IMG/VR virus record: IMGVR_UViG_3300047551_001494
Span: 1 to 23,655 of that record
Origin: a virus
Length of the DNA: 23,655 nucleotides
Strand: one strand, 5' to 3'
Position numbers and translations under genes: made by a program. The notes under the pieces are model-generated. The model had not been told where the DNA came from and did no database searches. It saw only the letters and a program-made list of their open reading frames with translations. This document shows, piece by piece, positions 3 to 12,636 of this stretch; positions within the stretch are counted from its first letter, which is position 1, and each line of letters begins with the position of its first letter.

Positions 3-695
3 GAGGAAGAGCCGATTACGACATTTGACTTATTAAAAGAGCAGATAGACGCGGACGAAGGGATTAAGAACACGTTGATGTTACCGTTTAATATAGATGG
101 TGCCCGGCCGGAGGTTGGTTCTATACCCCAAGCGGACATAATAGGAAACACTTATTTAGATGCTATATGGTATGCTGACCAAGAGAGTGTAAGGCATATA
201 ATACCCTACTTTTTAATATCTGACAGAAGTTTAGGTTTAAATCCTGAGTCAGTGGAGAGAAGGATGGAGGTATTTTACGAGTCATTAGAAGCCAAAAGAG
301 AGCAATTAACTGCGGCGTTGATAAAGCAGGTATTTACGTTATTAATTCAATGGAATTTTAATAGGGAGTCAGCTAAAACTCCCCCAAGATTTACAAGAAT
401 ATACTCAGACCGTTCTGAGGATAGGGTAGCTACCATGCAAGTAATAAAAGGGTTAACTGAGATAGGATGTTTAAACCCAAGGAATGATGAAGACTGGAAA
501 ATGATAAGACAGATGGTTAGACTGGGTGGTAGACAAATCGAACCTGACGATTTGAAGTTTATCCAACAAGTGGTTGTAGAACCTAGACAAAAAACACAAC
601 CGTCAGACGTTGGACCAAACGGTGCAGGAAAGCCAGGTAGGTCTACAGGTTCCACCACCAAACAAATCAAAGCCAGAGATAAACAAACCTCTTAA
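3..695 (+). CDS. Portal protein, C-terminal part (truncated by window start)
   Basis: The reading frame is open from the first complete codon to a TAA at 693-695 (about 230 residues), with no need for an internal start, so this is the 3' end of a longer gene cut by the window edge. Residues from about nt 130 to 370 look like a long amphipathic helical stretch (DQESVRHIIPYFL, then SLEAKREQLTAALIKQVFTL and LIQWNF), which suits the helical stem and wing end of portal proteins. The last 45 residues are polar and low-complexity, probably a disordered tail. Position supports the call: it precedes the protease/scaffold and major capsid genes, the usual portal slot. In the head the portal forms the dodecameric ring for DNA entry and tail attachment. 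The identification rests on order and helical character, not on a diagnostic motif; another head protein is possible. Confidence 0.6.
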   Translation, partial: EEEPITTFDLLKEQIDADEGIKNTLMLPFNIDGARPEVGSIPQADIIGNTYLDAIWYADQESVRHIIPYFLISDRSLGLNPESVERRMEVFYESLEAKREQLTAALIKQVFTLLIQWNFNRESAKTPPRFTRIYSDRSEDRVATMQVIKGLTEIGCLNPRNDEDWKMIRQMVRLGGRQIEPDDLKFIQQVVVEPRQKTQPSDVGPNGAGKPGRSTGSTTKQIKARDKQTS

Positions 696-701
696 TCAAC
701 C

Positions 702-1313
702 TTAAACAATCTCCAGAACGCCGCTTAATTTATTCCTGTTAGATGCTAGAGATCTACCTGATCTTAAATGTTTACAGTCTCTATACACACTAAAAGTATC
801 ACAGGTACATGAATAAGTTGTTACCATATTTTGACTTAACTGACTGCTAATAAACAGGAAATGACTCCCCTTCACCTCTTTTATTTTGTACCCCTGACTT
901 AACATAGAGCACAATATTAAGTTGTTGTAAGTTACTTCTACTATCGGTTTGCTCGGTAATTCAATACAAACTTCTTTATGATAGAAAGTATAGTAAAGTT
1001 TTCCGTTTTTAATTGAAGAGTAGTCTATACTTGTTTTTATTAGCTCCTGTATACATAAGTTAGCTATACATAGTAGGAGGCTTGAGCAATCAAGTTTTAG
1101 GTTTAGGATTAAAGACTGAGCTGTTACTATGTTTATAGAGTAGTGGTAGAAACCGGGTATCTTATCAAAGTTTATCTTTAAAGTTTGTGCTTTGTTTTTA
1201 TACATTTCAAGATAAAACTCGATTTCTATAAAGTCTGTTTGTAGGCTAACGTTTTGGATACAAACGCCTTTATAGATATCAAAAAAAGACAACAAAAACG
1301 ATTTAGATTCCAT
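702..1313 (-). CDS. Antisense protein with SWIM-type zinc-finger motif, function unknown
   Basis: The only convincing minus-strand gene here. Read from the ATG at 1313 it is 203 residues; an in-frame ATG at 1340 would add nine residues but overlap the divergent gene at 1316, so I prefer 1313. Near the C-terminus it has C169-x-C171-x8-C180-x-H182 (YSCTCDTFSVYRDCKHL), which fits the SWIM pattern CxCx(n)CxH, including the hydrophobic residue between the pairs and a Leu after the His. SWIM domains are known as zinc-dependent DNA- or protein-binding modules in SNF2-type ATPases, MULE transposases and plant FHY3/FAR1 proteins. The rest is a hydrophobic, probably alpha/beta domain I do not recognise. 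The gene ends 6 bp from the portal stop (convergent) and starts 2 bp from the next gene (divergent), leaving no room for its own promoter outside neighbouring coding sequence. It may be a cargo or regulatory gene. Confidence 0.7.
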   Translation of the reverse strand: MESKSFLLSFFDIYKGVCIQNVSLQTDFIEIEFYLEMYKNKAQTLKINFDKIPGFYHYSINIVTAQSLILNLKLDCSSLLLCIANLCIQELIKTSIDYSSIKNGKLYYTFYHKEVCIELPSKPIVEVTYNNLILCSMLSQGYKIKEVKGSHFLFISSQLSQNMVTTYSCTCDTFSVYRDCKHLRSGRSLASNRNKLSGVLEIV

Positions 1314-1315
1314 AT

Positions 1316-2065
1316 ATGAATGACAATCAGTTAATATCAATGCTAATAAACAATACAGACTTAGAGAAAGTAGCTGAGTTAGAGGTAGAGCCTATTGTAG
1401 CTCAAAGGGAGGAAGTGTCAAAAGAACAGGTACAGAGGGTGCCAACGTTAGTTGACAGTAGTTCTGAAAGCAAGCCTGACGTGGCGGCGCCTGTAATTAA
1501 GCTATCTGACTATGAGTATAATGTACCTGCAGGCAATTCTTTAATGCTAGAGGATTGTAACATACCTAATTATAGGCTAGCAAAGTGTTGTGCTAATTGT
1601 ACTTTTTCTATTTATGATCCAGTGAAGCACAGCGCGAGATGTGTAAAGTGGGATTGTTGTATAGTACCGGTATATTACTGCGATGAGCATACAGACCCTA
1701 AGAGTTTGATTGATAGCAGTGAGGGGGAGTACGAGAGTTATTCTGAGAAGCCGGAGCAATCAGAGAAGCTTGTAGGTGATGTAGAGCCTGAACTTTTAGA
1801 TAGTGTAGCTGAAAAAAGTGCAGAGGTAGAGCTAGAAAGCGTGAATAGTGCTGAAGTTACTTCTGAAGTTACTTCTGAAGTTATTTCTGAAGTTGTAGAA
1901 CAACGACTAGACTTAGTAGAAGGTGGATACGAAGATAAAGAGCTATACCAACAGGTATTAACTAACGCTCCTAGCTTCGAGCCGGAAGTTTACAAGCAGG
2001 CTTACATAAAGAAAAAGTACGCACAACTTTACAAAGAAAAATACGCAAATACAGTTTCCAAATAG
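1316..2065 (+). CDS. Acidic protein with central cysteine cluster, function unknown
   Basis: 249 residues, strongly acidic overall with a basic C-terminal tail (KKKYAQLYKEKY). A compact central domain at about residues 81-125 holds eight cysteines and a histidine: C81, C91, C92, C95, C109, C114, C115, C122 and H125. The spacing C92-x2-C95-x13-C109 and the closing YCDEH suggest a small metal or Fe-S binding fold. It resembles the short phage proteins that carry a CxxC, single C and final YC pattern, but I cannot name a family. Flanking regions are low-complexity; residues 179-195 are a SEVT-type repeat encoded by 12-bp tandem repeats. The start is 2 bp from the divergent start of the minus-strand gene and has no Shine-Dalgarno sequence. 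Its place between portal and protease suggests a head-assembly or accessory role, but no function is visible. Confidence 0.7.
   Translation: MNDNQLISMLINNTDLEKVAELEVEPIVAQREEVSKEQVQRVPTLVDSSSESKPDVAAPVIKLSDYEYNVPAGNSLMLEDCNIPNYRLAKCCANCTFSIYDPVKHSARCVKWDCCIVPVYYCDEHTDPKSLIDSSEGEYESYSEKPEQSEKLVGDVEPELLDSVAEKSAEVELESVNSAEVTSEVTSEVISEVVEQRLDLVEGGYEDKELYQQVLTNAPSFEPEVYKQAYIKKKYAQLYKEKYANTVSK
1851..1898 (+). repeat. 12-bp tandem repeat, about 4 copies
   Basis: Four consecutive 12-bp units based on CTGAAGTTACTT: the first two are identical, the third differs at one base, the fourth diverges at its 3' end. They encode an in-frame SEVT-like repeat in the acidic C-terminal half of the cysteine-cluster protein. 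Unit length is a multiple of three, so copy-number change would lengthen or shorten the protein without breaking the frame. Confidence 0.85.
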
Positions 2066-2116: not shown

Positions 2117-3103
2117 ATGACGAAACTTATAGAGATACAGCAGTTAGATTTAGCTGAGGTACAGGATCCAGTAAAGAAGTTATTAAAGGTACCCATAGCG
2201 ACAATAGGGAGTTGGGTGCATCCAGAGTATGGGGAGGTAAAGTTTTCGCAAGAGGATTTTAGGGAGATACTAGGGAATTGGAGTAAGAATATAGCAGGGT
2301 ATGAGCCGCCATTATTTTTAGGACATCCAACGGACACGAGTAGTGTAGAGGGAGCGCCGTCGGTAGGTTTTTTAGAGAAACTATACCAAGAGGGTTCTGT
2401 GTTATATGGGTTATTTGATCCAGTTGACGATAAAGTTTTCGAGGATGTTGCTAAGGGGTCCTACAGATATTCGAGTGCGGAGTTATCAAGAAATGCTGCC
2501 AGCAAAGAAACTGGGGAACCGATAGGGACGTTGCTGCGCGGGGCTGCACTTACCAACAGACCTTTTCTAACAGGACTACCTAGAGTAGAAGCTGTATATC
2601 AACAATTTAGTGAGCAAGAACCACAATCTAATTTAACCTTTTTATTTCATTTAAATACTATGTCTAATTCTATTGAAACTGCAGCTGCGGCACAAGTCGC
2701 ATCTGTTTCCGAACAAAAACTAGCTGAGGTAGCTGCTGACCTAACTCTAAAACTAGAGGAGCTAAGCAAGAAACTGGAAGCTACTGAGCACAAACTGTCA
2801 GAAGCTAACTCTGAAATCGAACGTATGACCGCTGAGTCTGCTTTAAAGCAATTAGCTTTACTTAACATCTCGGCTGATACAAAACAGGTTTTCTCTGAAC
2901 TGTTACCCTCCCTTAGTAAAGAACAACGCCGTGAGCAATTAGAGAAACTAATTAAACTCTCTGAAGGCAATTCTGAAAAGTTTAACCAAGCTCAAGGTGA
3001 ATCTAAACCTGAGTCCTCTGAACAACCTTCTAACCCCTACGAAGATATTATTAAACGTAATAAAGAAATCTTCGCAGAGCTTAACAAAGGTAAGTTCTAC
3101 TAA
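2117..3103 (+). CDS. Capsid maturation protease with C-terminal scaffold (Mu gpI-like)
   Basis: 328 residues in two visible halves. Residues 1-160 match the Mu-like I protein pattern: an early PIATIGSW and PEYGEVKF segment, LFLGHPTD at 66-73 with a conserved-looking His, SYRYSSAELS at 115-124 and GAALTNRPFLTGLP at 142-155. Members of this family cleave scaffold and capsid components during prohead maturation. Residues about 185-285 are a heptad-like, charge-rich coiled coil (LKLEELSKKLEATEHKL), as expected for an internal scaffold, followed by a short polar tail. An in-frame ATG at 2660 (residue 182, MSNSIE) lies exactly at the junction and could start a separate scaffold protein, as gene Z nests within gene I in Mu. 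Base composition also changes near this junction, from G-rich to C-rich on the coding strand. The gene directly precedes the capsid gene. No strong Shine-Dalgarno precedes 2117. Confidence 0.82.
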   Translation: MTKLIEIQQLDLAEVQDPVKKLLKVPIATIGSWVHPEYGEVKFSQEDFREILGNWSKNIAGYEPPLFLGHPTDTSSVEGAPSVGFLEKLYQEGSVLYGLFDPVDDKVFEDVAKGSYRYSSAELSRNAASKETGEPIGTLLRGAALTNRPFLTGLPRVEAVYQQFSEQEPQSNLTFLFHLNTMSNSIETAAAAQVASVSEQKLAEVAADLTLKLEELSKKLEATEHKLSEANSEIERMTAESALKQLALLNISADTKQVFSELLPSLSKEQRREQLEKLIKLSEGNSEKFNQAQGESKPESSEQPSNPYEDIIKRNKEIFAELNKGKFY

Positions 3104-3108
3104 GTAAA

Positions 3109-3119
3109 CACATATAAAA
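3109..3119 (+). promoter_or_regulatory. Candidate promoter element upstream of capsid gene
   Basis: CACATATAAAA lies 37 nt before the capsid ATG, in the 53-bp gap after the protease. The same 11-mer recurs at 13500-13510 just after the intrinsic terminator. It resembles the T4-type late promoter TATAAATA, but this is pattern matching in AT-rich DNA and no transcript data are available. Confidence 0.35.
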
Positions 3120-3156
3120 ATAACTTAAGTTAATATAACTTTTATAGGAACTAATT

Positions 3157-4473
3157 ATGGCAATTGAATTTGAAGCTGGTGTAAGTCCATACCAGTATAT
3201 AGGAGATGAATATACTTTTGGCTCATTGCAGTTAACGATGTTAGCGAGGTCATTTGAGCAGTTAGCGGTAACATCGCTGCAAGAGTTTTTCCCATCGAGG
3301 CTAATTAACGAGCGGACTATTGTAGTAGAGCAGATTATTGAAGGTGTAGGGATCATGCCGATTGTAAGATTTGGCATTCCCAGTGGTGGTTACTTAGAGC
3401 AAAACCGGGTAAGGTCAATGACGGCTCGCCCGGCTGTTGTTCGTGAAGATGACTTTATTGAGCAGCATTTTATCAACCAAGTACGCCGTGTAGGTACATT
3501 TAATGAAGCTTACCGCCCTGAAGAATTTATTCAGCGCCGCGTTCAACAACTCGTTGCCCGCCACTCCCGCACTAAAGACCTGTTTATTACTAAAGCTCTT
3601 CTGGGGGGTATAAAGTATACTGATCCTCGTACTGGCGTTAGTATAGATGTATCTTCTAATATTCCGGCTCATAATTTATTTAAATACGACGGTTTTAATG
3701 CTACAGTCACAGACGGTACAATTAACGTTGGTGGGTCTGGCCTAAAAGCTAATAAAGCTTTGACTAACAGTAAAGGTCGTCCAGAAGCTTTAATGTTTAA
3801 GTCAACCGACGCTAGATGCGCTGTACCCTGGACTGATAATAAAGCTGATATTATCTACTGTTTGCGTTTAATTAAAGAGTATTTGTATAAGACTAACAAA
3901 AATCGTCCAACCGACATTTTGATTAGCTCTGACTTGCTAACTATTTTGATGGAAAACGAGTACATCAAAGCATTAAGTAACGTACCTGGTGTTGTAATTC
4001 TAAATCAGCCAACATCAACCGTAGCTGGTAATGCTAATATTGCAGCTACAGCTAATACCCCAGCAAGTTACATTACAATGGGTGCCGGCGGAGAAATTTC
4101 TTCTATTGCCGGTTTAAGAATTATTGCAGTAGACGGACTATACAGAGACCCTGTAGATAACGTTATTAAAACCTACTGGCCAGCTCATAAAGTAGCTATT
4201 GTGTCTCGCTCCGCGTCTGGAGATCCTTCTGCTACTCTAGGCTTTACTTACCACTGCAGCGGTGAAGCTCCAGATGGACAGCCTGGTATGTATATGCGCA
4301 CCTCCGCTATGTCCGAACCACCTGCACCTCCTGGACGTGTTATGCAGCTAGGTGATGCCTTCTTACCAGTTGTTATCTATCCTCACTGGATCTCTATTCT
4401 GGATGTATGTGAACCTAACGAACTGTCTAACAAGTTTATCATTCAATCCAACCTCAGTTACGGTACTTTCTAA
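3157..4473 (+). CDS. Major capsid protein (lambda gpE-like fold family)
   Basis: 438 residues. The layout matches the lambda gpE capsid family: an N-terminal arm, then IVVEQIIEGVGIMPIVRFG (compare the beta-rich start of gpE), a SMTARPAVVREDDFI stretch where gpE has its GYVKPKHEV region, a helical segment QQLVARHSRTKDLFITKALL ending in a GGIKY-type turn, and a C-terminal segment after HCSGEAPDGQPGMYMRTSAM with the LPVVIYPHWISILDV strand. Capsid proteins of this family form the icosahedral shell in the HK97 fold. The start is supported by AGGA at 3146-3149, 7 nt upstream. The gene stands alone between a candidate promoter and a stem-loop, consistent with high expression. Oddity: arginine codons are AGG, CGG or AGA for the first six arginines (through residue 86) and then CGC or CGT for a long run from residue 91, with a matching change in G/C skew. 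Confidence 0.85.
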   Translation: MAIEFEAGVSPYQYIGDEYTFGSLQLTMLARSFEQLAVTSLQEFFPSRLINERTIVVEQIIEGVGIMPIVRFGIPSGGYLEQNRVRSMTARPAVVREDDFIEQHFINQVRRVGTFNEAYRPEEFIQRRVQQLVARHSRTKDLFITKALLGGIKYTDPRTGVSIDVSSNIPAHNLFKYDGFNATVTDGTINVGGSGLKANKALTNSKGRPEALMFKSTDARCAVPWTDNKADIIYCLRLIKEYLYKTNKNRPTDILISSDLLTILMENEYIKALSNVPGVVILNQPTSTVAGNANIAATANTPASYITMGAGGEISSIAGLRIIAVDGLYRDPVDNVIKTYWPAHKVAIVSRSASGDPSATLGFTYHCSGEAPDGQPGMYMRTSAMSEPPAPPGRVMQLGDAFLPVVIYPHWISILDVCEPNELSNKFIIQSNLSYGTF

Positions 4474-9054: not shown

Positions 9055-12000
9055 ATGCCTGCACCATCAATTAAATTTATAGACAGTTTGGTAGGGCCAT
9101 CACAGGTTACCAAGCAGTGGAGAGACACAGTAGGGGTTATTGGTACATTTAGCAGAGGGCCGGAGTCTCCTATTTTAGTAGAAGATCTTAAGACTTTTGC
9201 CAGTATATATGGAGTTGATTCGTCTAGCGGGTCTTTGTTTGTTCAGCAAGCAATGGCTAATGGTCTAAATAGATTTGTAGTAGTGAGAGCTTCCGCTAGT
9301 TCTAACCCATCATATTCAGCACTTACCTTTACTTCTGGTAATGCGCAGATAAGCCCTGTTATTGGTTATGTAGTAAATGGAAATAGCTTAGAGCCAAGTT
9401 CCTATAGAACTACTGGGTTAAAAATAGACTTTGATTACATAGGAAGTCCAATTTCTATAAATCCTACTTTTTCCCCTGTAAATTCTAGAAGAGGTCAAGT
9501 TAACTTACCCAATTTTGTAGGACAAGCTAGATTTAACTTCTACGTTACTAAAGCGGTAGAAGGTAGAAGTTCATCTCCCCTGTTGCACGACACAACTAAA
9601 AAACTAACAGTAGACACAATACTAGGGCCCACCCCAGGATACTTTTTAGGGCTTATTAACACAGCACCTAACAGCAATCCTGACTATGCCACACTGAAGG
9701 AATACATTCGCCCTGGTTATTCTTTAGTTTCAAATGAAACACACCTTTCAGATAATTTAATTATTGCTTCTGATATCATACCTAACTACTCCCAAGACAA
9801 TGATGCCTTGCTAATACGGTCTGATAAAAAGCATAGCCATGCCGTGTGGGGGGTTGTATCAGGGGTAGAAAGTGGTCAATCTCAAGTAAAAGTTGGTTTT
9901 ATTAAAGTAAAACCAAGGCCGGGTACTACTTTAAGCGAAGACTATATTCAGACAACAGAAAATGGAGGCACTGAGACAAATACTTTCAAAGCCCTAAAAG
10001 AGATGGTATTGCTTATAGACGGCGTTGAGTATAAGCAGTCCACCACCGCTCCAGTACCTGAAACTAGTTCTGTTTTTGCTTTAAACGCGGCTGTAAATAC
10101 CGTCGATGGTTTAGGGGATGATTTAGATTTTAGTTTTGATGACCTAATAGATGAAAATCTCTCTGAAGGTACTGCTTTAGATAATATTGCTGGCACCAGA
10201 TTTACATTTACCTTACCCTCTGACACTCAAACAAGAGCTATCCAAGGTGGCAGTACTGTAACCTTCTTGCCCAAAGTCAGCGCAAAAACTGATAACAACA
10301 AAACAATTACAATAACTGGCCTATACTCCTATACTGCGGCTATGGAAGGACAAGGGGTAATAGCTCCAGATGGTAACATACTTAGCGACACTACTAAAGG
10401 TAAATATTACATTGTTATTAAAGGCAAAAAGTACACTATAGCGGCTGTAGCCACAGTTACTAACCAACCTGAACAGCTAAGTATTACTTTAGTGGAAGAT
10501 TATACCGGTACTGTAGGGGATGCAGTATACATCTACTACAAACCTGATAATACAGAGATAAACTATAAAATCCATGCGCCAAAGATTGCTCAGTACGTAA
10601 TGGGTTATTCGTTTAATAGCCAATCTGGGTCTATGGATTCTGATTACTTTACCCTAACTCAATCGTACAATACAGGAACAAGTACTGTACAACTTGATAA
10701 TACTTTCTTATTAACGGAAAGGGCAGGGGGTAGGTATATTAGCTTTGGTTATTTCGTTAAAGCACCTTTCGAGACAGAGTATACTAGTAAGGCCTTTCCA
10801 GTATTAACTAAACCATTTGGTATCGAGTTAATGTATGGGACACAGGGAGTCGCGGCGCTACCGTTATCAACTGGAGGTTCTTTTGCTGTACCTTTTGCTA
10901 AAACTTCTATTACATTAGGTTCAAGTAGTGCTGGAGACCCTAATGCTTTCCAGGATGGAGATTTAGCTACGGACATTACTAAGAGCATAGAAACTGCTTT
11001 ACGGTCTAATAGTGTAATCTCATATCTAATAAGTAACATTACACTGGAAGATTCAATCTTAGTAGACAACGCTACAGAGTTTAAACCCTCTATCTCTTTC
11101 ACATCTTTTTATAGTGGTGAACAAGCTAATAGAATTAACTGGAAGGTCACTAGATACACAAATGACCTTCAGGGCAGCTCAACAAAAGTCAAAGATTTGC
11201 TATTAGGTGCAAAAGCTACGACAGACGCTAACTATGGAAGAACAAACTACTTTGAAGGTGGTTATGACGGCCCCAGTTTTGCGTTTAGAGACCTTTATTC
11301 TGCTGATGGAACTTTACTGTGGAGAATAGAATCCGGCACCCCTGGATTACACGGTAACAATATCTCTTGCACTGTAAGAAACCAAAAGACTAACGGCAAC
11401 TACGCCTCTTTTGAAATCGAAGTCCGAGACCAAAACACAACTGTTATTTCTTCAGATTCTAGAATTGTCACTGTTGTTAACAGCTCTTTGATTGACTTTA
11501 CTACAGGCCGAAGTTTAGCTTTTAGTAGCACTAGCTTAGTACAAGCTTACTTTATGCCAGTAGTAAGTGCTATTAGTGGGAATTTAGCATTAGACGCTAC
11601 TAAAAATAGATTCTTTAGATTATCGCCTCAGCGTCTTGCGCCTCCTTTGGAGAAGATAAGTTCAAGTTTTTCTGCTGGGGATACAGGCTTTTCTCGCCAA
11701 GGAAGTACAGCACTTTCCTCCTTCTTCTTAAAAGGTGGCAGTGATGGTACTTTAACAGCTCCGAGTAAAAAATCTCTAGCTCAAGGCTTAATACGCGGAC
11801 TAGAAGCTTTGGATAGTATTAATGTCGCAGCTATTGCTCTACCTGGCATCAACTACGGTGACCAAGATTATCAAGCTGTATTTGAGAAAGCTGTACACAG
11901 TGTTAATTCTTCTACTCCTGAATCAGGGCTAAGAACTGCAGTCTTTGAATTAGCTCCAGGTATTAACGCCGATCGAGCCGCAACCCTTGCTGCAGAACTT

Positions 12001-12636
12001 GATAATGAACGTATTGTACTGTTAGCCGGTAGCCAGCTTATGCGGGGCGATAATGGCCTGCTAGTACCTAACGTTGGCTCCTCTGGTTCATACCTCGGTT
12101 ACGACCTATCTCGTGCTCCTAACTTATCTCCTGCTGCATCATACTCGGGTGCTTTAGTTAGACGAGTAACTTCTGTCGACACACTTACTAATACCGCTTT
12201 CTTGGACAAAATGTCTGATGCCGGTGTTGAAGTTCTGCTGTTTGATGCTAACATCGGCGGTTTCCGCTTCTGTAATGGTTTAACTACTAGCAAACAGCTG
12301 GCTAAACGATACAGGTCAGTTGTTCGCACCTTAGACCAAGTCAAAACAGACTTATACTTAGCATTGCAATGGTGCCGTTCTCGCCCAAATACTCCTCAGT
12401 TACAGTCAGAAGTGGCCAGTGCATGTGATACCTATTTGTACAGTAAACTCAGAGATGGTTGGTTTAGTAATCTTCAGCCTACTATTTGCTCTGAAGCCAA
12501 TAATACTGTTAGAGATCAACTAGAAGGTCGCCTTAATGTCAGAATACGGTTTACTCCTTCATTCCCAGCGGACACTATTGTAGTATCCACAATTATGGAT
12601 ATTTCTGACGACTTTACTATTCAAACCACTATTTAA
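9055..12636 (+). CDS. Contractile tail sheath protein, unusually long
   Basis: 1193 residues. The N-terminus is typical of sheath proteins: GVIGTFSRGPESPILV, then an FASIYG segment and NRFVVVRAS by about residue 85. Conserved core features resume near residue 735 with GGYDGPSFAFRD and IESGTPGLHGNNISCTVRN, then GGSDG at about 893, INVAAIALPG, and a standard C-terminal sheath domain (LATSKQLAKRYRS-like segment, ALQWCRSRPN, LEGRLNVRIRFTPSFPADTIVV). Most sheath proteins are roughly 380-700 aa, so about 650 residues between 86 and 740 look inserted; that part is beta-rich with Ig-like character (TITITGLYSYTAAM, YYIVIKGKKYTIAAV). The sheath polymerises around the tube and contracts to drive infection. 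No Shine-Dalgarno precedes the start. The tube gene follows 20 bp downstream. Confidence 0.9.
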   Translation: MPAPSIKFIDSLVGPSQVTKQWRDTVGVIGTFSRGPESPILVEDLKTFASIYGVDSSSGSLFVQQAMANGLNRFVVVRASASSNPSYSALTFTSGNAQISPVIGYVVNGNSLEPSSYRTTGLKIDFDYIGSPISINPTFSPVNSRRGQVNLPNFVGQARFNFYVTKAVEGRSSSPLLHDTTKKLTVDTILGPTPGYFLGLINTAPNSNPDYATLKEYIRPGYSLVSNETHLSDNLIIASDIIPNYSQDNDALLIRSDKKHSHAVWGVVSGVESGQSQVKVGFIKVKPRPGTTLSEDYIQTTENGGTETNTFKALKEMVLLIDGVEYKQSTTAPVPETSSVFALNAAVNTVDGLGDDLDFSFDDLIDENLSEGTALDNIAGTRFTFTLPSDTQTRAIQGGSTVTFLPKVSAKTDNNKTITITGLYSYTAAMEGQGVIAPDGNILSDTTKGKYYIVIKGKKYTIAAVATVTNQPEQLSITLVEDYTGTVGDAVYIYYKPDNTEINYKIHAPKIAQYVMGYSFNSQSGSMDSDYFTLTQSYNTGTSTVQLDNTFLLTERAGGRYISFGYFVKAPFETEYTSKAFPVLTKPFGIELMYGTQGVAALPLSTGGSFAVPFAKTSITLGSSSAGDPNAFQDGDLATDITKSIETALRSNSVISYLISNITLEDSILVDNATEFKPSISFTSFYSGEQANRINWKVTRYTNDLQGSSTKVKDLLLGAKATTDANYGRTNYFEGGYDGPSFAFRDLYSADGTLLWRIESGTPGLHGNNISCTVRNQKTNGNYASFEIEVRDQNTTVISSDSRIVTVVNSSLIDFTTGRSLAFSSTSLVQAYFMPVVSAISGNLALDATKNRFFRLSPQRLAPPLEKISSSFSAGDTGFSRQGSTALSSFFLKGGSDGTLTAPSKKSLAQGLIRGLEALDSINVAAIALPGINYGDQDYQAVFEKAVHSVNSSTPESGLRTAVFELAPGINADRAATLAAELDNERIVLLAGSQLMRGDNGLLVPNVGSSGSYLGYDLSRAPNLSPAASYSGALVRRVTSVDTLTNTAFLDKMSDAGVEVLLFDANIGGFRFCNGLTTSKQLAKRYRSVVRTLDQVKTDLYLALQWCRSRPNTPQLQSEVASACDTYLYSKLRDGWFSNLQPTICSEANNTVRDQLEGRLNVRIRFTPSFPADTIVVSTIMDISDDFTIQTTI

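Follow-up and report, generated by a model that had tools for sequence, protein, structure and literature searches.

The head operon of a family of large cyanobacterial myophages holds, between the portal and the protease genes, a gene that runs against its structural neighbors, is under selection as a coding sequence, shows family-wide homology, encodes a SWIM-type zinc-ligand motif, keeps its place and orientation, and shares its slot with other antisense genes. Since tailed phages usually pack their head genes tightly and in one orientation, a conserved single antisense gene among these is unusual. In the searchable literature, we found no description of a fixed antisense place across this family, and no paper dealing with SWIM proteins in these phages. 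The persistence of the antisense gene in one slot in phages whose capsid proteins are ~30% identical suggests that place and direction matter, and not only the protein. In addition, phrog_32834, which PHROGs lists as being of unknown function, now has a motif and a confidently predicted structure.

The antisense frame and its neighbors

The window, that is, the whole analyzed stretch of 23,655 nucleotides, is an IMG/VR virus contig; an identical SWIM protein is encoded on a second contig, IMGVR_UViG_3300035670_006854. The original prediction described a minus-strand frame of about 203 codons with a CxCx8CxH motif, separated from its neighbors by 6 and 2 bp, and both points are confirmed. The gene (702-1313, minus strand; 203 aa; homolog of Ma-LMM01 gp084 and phrog_32834) starts with an ATG at 1313 and ends with a stop codon at 702-704; an alternative in-frame TTG lies upstream at 1340, and the ATG at 1313 is also found in the closest relatives. 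The codons of the motif CTCDTFSVYRDCKH occupy positions 768-809 on the minus strand (residues 169-182, counted from the ATG at 1313). The C-terminal part of a Mu-type portal gene (3-695, plus strand; PF06074, E=1.3e-5), the start of which lies outside the window and which is full-length in relatives, converges on the antisense gene, its stop codon ending at 695, 6 bp away. On the other side, a divergent gene for a Cys-rich protein (1316-2065, plus strand) begins after a gap of 2 bp, in the sequence CAT-AT-ATG. It is followed by the Mu-like head maturation protease (2117-3103, plus strand; PF10123, E=2.2e-9; phrog_976, E=2.3e-13), which forms the downstream border of the slot, and by the major capsid protein (3157-4473, plus strand; PF03864, E=3.1e-14), 30% identical to the major head proteins of the Ma-LMM01 type; the major capsid gene served as the family marker for finding relatives. 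According to a greedy ORF call, 702-1313 is the sole minus-strand gene in the window.

In the window's clade, the Cys-rich gene is kept between the SWIM gene and the protease. An alignment of eight homologs of its product shows C92, C95, C109 and C122 to be invariant, in a CxxC...C...C pattern that might form a metal or Fe-S site. Farther downstream, the tail sheath gene (9055-12636, plus strand; 1193 aa) matches sheath proteins at residues 635-1182 only, which leaves a long N-terminal extension.

A coding gene under selection

The 702-1313 frame is a real gene under selection and not a chance frame. Not one of 1000 mononucleotide shuffles yielded an ORF of 150 aa or longer in this slot, and the other five frames of the slot contain 11-25 stops. 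The frame is intact in orthologs with 57-23% identity (L003/L005, 57%; L006/L007, 35-36%; L011, 33-35%; L009, 23-24%). Comparison with L003 gave dN = 0.315 and dS = 1.394, a ratio of 0.23 that is only approximate because dS is high (for more distant pairs, the ratio is unreliable or not computable), and the numbers of differences at the three codon positions are 62, 49 and 91, an excess at the third. Thus, relatives with frame-breaking changes and no purifying selection, which the original prediction had named as evidence that would count against it, were not seen. It is true that the window protein, taken alone, has no significant match in Pfam, PHROGs or NCBIfam, as might be expected of a chance antisense ORF; nevertheless, the existence of homologs, the invariant ligands, the purifying selection and the frames open throughout make such an origin virtually impossible, and the conservation over 21 sequence clusters is enough to refute it.

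The same constraint bears on another possibility, namely, that the functional product is the antisense transcript, a regulatory RNA over the portal-protease junction, rather than a protein. The fixed antisense orientation and the tight or overlapping gene ends would suit such an RNA, but the constraint acts at the protein level, as seen in the invariant ligands, the third-position excess and the dN/dS ratio, and the window contains no match to an Rfam family; hence, we regard this possibility as very improbable.

The SWIM protein evolves much faster than the head proteins: between the window and L003, it is 57% identical, as compared to 95% for the portal, 85% for the protease and 94% for the capsid protein, and the 1316-2065 gene alone evolves as fast (52%). 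In the window's clade, the SWIM gene has a G+C content of 0.319 versus 0.40-0.42 in its neighbors; in Microcoleus phage My-WqHQDG, the G+C content of the gene is not deviant, and in Ma-LMM01, it is slightly low.

Zinc motif and predicted fold

All four zinc ligands (C169-x-C171-x8-C180-x-H182 in the window protein) are kept in each of the 30 distinct SWIM proteins, which form 21 clusters below 80% identity, the spacing n in CxCxnCxH varying from 5 to 13. The SWIM zinc finger (PF04434) is known from SNF2-associated proteins, MuDR transposases and Shu2/SWS1. The phage family shares with it the CxCxnCxH knuckle, with a beta-hairpin before it and a helix after it, but differs in that the phage protein stands alone and has an alpha-beta N-terminal part. 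Two homologs exceed the curated PF04434 cut-off of 19.6 bits (L047, 30.4 bits; L048, 21.3 bits), and 15 of 23 family members match at E<=0.1, whereas the window protein itself does not reach the cut-off and has no PF04434 match. The SWIM reading is, accordingly, supported at the level of the family and not by a match of the particular protein for which it was proposed; this protein is a putative zinc binder. No ATPase, transposase or recombinase partner of the kind found with PF04434 proteins was seen at the locus; in particular, Shu2/SWS1 mediators pair with a Rad51 paralog, and the phage locus shows no such partner.

When the window protein was searched by tblastn against 50,697 phage records, no match was obtained, and the connection to Ma-LMM01 was established through synteny and profiles. 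An hhalign comparison of the window's clade with ten short-form homologs, including the gp084 type, gave 97% (E=3.8e-11); L011, a member of the window's clade, matches phrog_32834, to which Ma-LMM01 gp084 (YP_851098.1) belongs, at 1.5e-4; and the L080 protein matches gp084 in tblastn with E=1e-16. Like the window gene, gp084 is antisense between portal and protease, and its product has the alpha-beta-beta-beta-alpha and SWIM core with the zinc ligands kept; it differs in having one N-terminal unit and 140 aa (two units and 203 aa in the window protein) and a CxC-CxH spacing of 5 rather than 8, with ~22% identity. In Fukuivirus, gp084 and phrog_32834 are recorded as hypothetical protein, with no function or SWIM annotation. 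The My-WqHQDG protein WOL31290.1 is likewise encoded antisense upstream of the protease and carries the SWIM motif CTCAASTYSKDNTPCKH, but it is of the short form, and a plus-strand gene separates its gene from the portal.

Structure prediction, which had been proposed as a check, yielded a confident model: AlphaFold2, supplied with 23 sequences, gave pLDDT 93.8 and pTM 0.89 for the window protein. The predicted order in this long form is helix, three strands and helix, a repeat of that unit, a hairpin, the knuckle and a C-terminal helix, whereas the short form (L080, pLDDT 87.7) has a single helix-three strands-helix unit. The N-terminal duplication is a structural impression, visible in the predicted secondary structure only, because the sequence profiles of the two halves do not match each other. 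Foldseek searches of the long model against PDB and BFVD, and of the short model against PDB, produced no credible match (none at E<=0.001, TM ~0.2), matches to Pur-alpha, glyoxalase and sliding clamps being dismissed as noise, and a PDB sequence search returned one non-significant match.

One more identity, that of a HicA-like RNase toxin, was considered because residues 149-151 form a GSH motif and Pfam gave a weak match. HicA_toxin is matched with E=0.023 in L006, and phrog_353 (toxin) with E=0.0099 in L011. However, the HicA score (PF07927) of 15.2 lies below the Pfam cut-off of 27 bits; the GSH stretch, which would contain the catalytic histidine, is confined to the window's side of the family, being missing in Ma-LMM01, Microcoleus phage and most IMG/VR members; it corresponds to the hairpin that precedes the SWIM knuckle; and no antitoxin gene adjoins. 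This identity, extremely improbable in our view, was rejected.

Distribution among relatives

By capsid protein, the nearest annotated phages, at ~30% identity, are Microcoleus phage My-WqHQDG and members of Fukuivirus (Ma-LMM01, MaMV-DC, MaMV-DH01 and others). In Ma-LMM01, MaMV-DH01 and My-WqHQDG, the corresponding interval contains a minus-strand gene with the motif. A profile of these proteins together with those of the closer relatives finds exactly one copy per record with a covered slot, and no second copy in the rest of the records to which it was applied. A wider scan with the capsid yielded 62 loci: 36 with the gene, 11 with a covered slot and no profile match, and 15 in which the contig ends before the slot. 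As for the presence of the gene at this locus in related phages, which had been suggested as a check, in all 36 gene-bearing IMG/VR loci it lies upstream of the Mu-like protease in minus orientation, and it follows the portal in every locus that includes the portal; in about one third of the 36, the portal lies beyond the end of the contig or locus, so that the position upstream of the protease is what these loci demonstrate. 

A capsid tree of 28 rows shows the gene in two clades (of 7 and 13 rows), in which every covered slot holds it, L040 excepted; seven gene-less rows form one clade, and the eighth, L040, falls inside the window's clade. The presence/absence label changes twice on this tree, fewer times than in any of 500 shuffles. 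As the root is uncertain, the tree does not distinguish a single gain, followed by loss or change in L040, from an older origin with two losses, and the absences are to be read with caution because a divergent homolog may escape the profile. The slot of L040 contains an antisense frame of 185 aa (2764-3318, minus strand), which lacks the zinc ligands and is followed by a plus-strand Cys-rich gene like the 1316-2065 gene of the window. The C-terminal part of this frame, WSLKEVKGEGYIV, resembles the stretch before the motif, YKIKEVKGSHFLF, and the match is weak (hmmsearch with two sequences, E=0.022; hhalign probability 1.8%); a zinc-less homolog of the SWIM family is plausible.

The SWIM gene is thus a core, apparently vertically inherited gene of a family of large cyanobacterial myophages. 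This pattern bears on the suggestion, made in the original prediction, that it might be a host-directed cargo gene, i.e. an independently transcribed, moron-like gene for a host-directed or counter-defence protein. With phage morons it shares the opposite orientation inside a structural operon and a presumed promoter of its own; its low G+C content in the window's clade, its fast evolution and the admission of varying genes to the slot would also agree with cargo. Yet cargo genes come and go and spread sporadically, whereas this gene is core in two large clades and tracks the capsid tree; its G+C content is not deviant or only slightly low in the annotated relatives; and 292 cyanobacterial genomes gave just two short matches, both to the knuckle only. 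We therefore disfavor a host-directed cargo role, which seems unlikely, as does a recent cargo gene. A scan of genome contigs with the capsid profile found a related capsid gene on one contig of a cyanobacterial genome assembly (L100; Elainella saxicola E1, LUGL01000101.1), which ends before the slot.

The portal-protease slot as an antisense island

In 25 representative loci, the portal-protease interval contains 22 plus-strand and 51 minus-strand ORFs (of 73), as compared to 177 plus-strand and 7 minus-strand ORFs (of 184) downstream of it; a few entries in these counts may be false because the ORF call was greedy. The description of the gene as a lone antisense gene holds for the window and not for the family, in that the slots of several relatives hold two to six antisense genes, and a single one is characteristic of the window's clade only. 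The SWIM gene is the constant member of this slot, and in several phages it closes the antisense run, while its companions vary between lineages. A Dps-like gene (phrog_3636) heads the run in L048, L050, L057, L061 and L080; an HNH gene belongs to the run of L048, a DHH phosphoesterase to that of L059, and a phrog_37791 gene, with a homolog elsewhere in Ma-LMM01 (gp045), to those of L059 and L080; in L031/L033, a dUTPase gene comes after the SWIM gene, and the slot of L036 includes a winged-helix gene. By the guilt-by-association logic, these companions point to DNA metabolism or regulation.

Several other features of the slot deserve mention. Antisense runs are found in L048, L050, L053, L057, L059, L061 and L080, and the slots of L050 and L053 contain tandem paralogs of one uncharacterized family. 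In L080, a long perfect inverted repeat, TAATATCTATATTGAAATATTTCAATATAGATATTA, is located on the minus strand near 3221-3260, immediately upstream of the start codon of the Dps-like gene that opens the antisense run. The element TGTAGGCATTTA is common to L050, L053, L057 and L061, where it sits in A+T-rich DNA that separates the protease from the antisense run.

Promoter and expression

With 2 bp of non-coding space left, the promoter of the SWIM gene in this genome must overlap the 1316-2065 gene, as had been argued originally; a conserved promoter for the gene was looked for and not found. Among the promoter-like matches on both strands of the first 4.6 kb, TTGACA-N16-TACAAT scores highest (11 of 12 positions); it lies inside the 1316-2065 gene on the minus strand (1394-1421, read from 1421 to 1394). 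It is a candidate only, since sigma-70-like matches in these 4.6 kb are just as numerous as expected from shuffles and L003 has not retained the -35 hexamer.

For Ma-LMM01, an RNA-seq study distinguished an early set (gp054-gp063), a separate cluster (gp037-gp041), 162 middle genes and five late genes (PMC5780444). The main text of that paper gives no expression class for gp084, which is not among the three late genes that it names (PMC5780444). As gp084 is outside the early set, it is, by the class counts given there, most likely expressed in the middle phase. The published libraries do not separate the two strands, so that reads from plus-strand read-through would be assigned to gp084.

Proposed role

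We suggest, with a probability of about 0.45, that the SWIM gene provides an accessory protein that binds zinc and acts in phage DNA metabolism or regulation, forms its own transcription unit, and is damped by interference from the head operon. The product would be a small soluble zinc-binding protein with one or two alpha-beta-beta-beta-alpha units followed by the SWIM knuckle, probably an adaptor that binds nucleic acids or proteins and takes part in the DNA metabolism of the phage or in the regulation of that metabolism. Its promoter would overlap the 5' end of the adjacent plus-strand gene or lie close to it, and would most likely be active in the middle phase; increasing plus-strand transcription across the head genes would then turn the SWIM gene down through convergent polymerases and antisense RNA. 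Zinc binding, the role, the timing of expression and the interference mechanism are what we infer from the data above.

The main competitor of this proposal is an accessory of head assembly or DNA packaging that acts on the portal, the protease or the packaged DNA, the antisense direction keeping its dose low. The fixed place beside the portal and the protease, kept across capsid identities down to ~30%, would equally fit such a role, as would the presence of a single copy in the records searched. Structural genes, however, are normally co-transcribed with the head operon; sister phages build heads without a detectable SWIM copy; and the SWIM protein evolves much faster than the portal, protease and capsid proteins. 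Furthermore, the genes that accompany it in antisense are of the nucleic-acid or stress type, and, because the companions are DHH phosphoesterase, phrog_37791, HNH, dUTPase, Dps-like and winged-helix genes, a regulator or nuclease accessory fits better than a structural protein. The head-assembly role can, in our opinion, be considered possible, if rather doubtful. Against the proposed role in DNA metabolism, it should be noted that the fold searches gave no functional analog and that the companions, changing as they do between lineages, may be unrelated to the role of the SWIM gene.

A more specific and improbable version of the regulatory role can be envisaged, in which the SWIM protein would be a middle-phase regulator of the head genes and would itself be shut off by late plus-strand transcription. 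It would, with the same low likelihood, imply a convergent-transcription switch built into the head operon family-wide, in phages that apparently use only host sigma-70 promoters. The authors of the Ma-LMM01 study raise the question of how near-identical, host-type promoters can give rise to three expression phases (PMC5780444); the silencing of gp084 upon the rise of plus-strand transcription would be one candidate answer, to which we ascribe a low probability.
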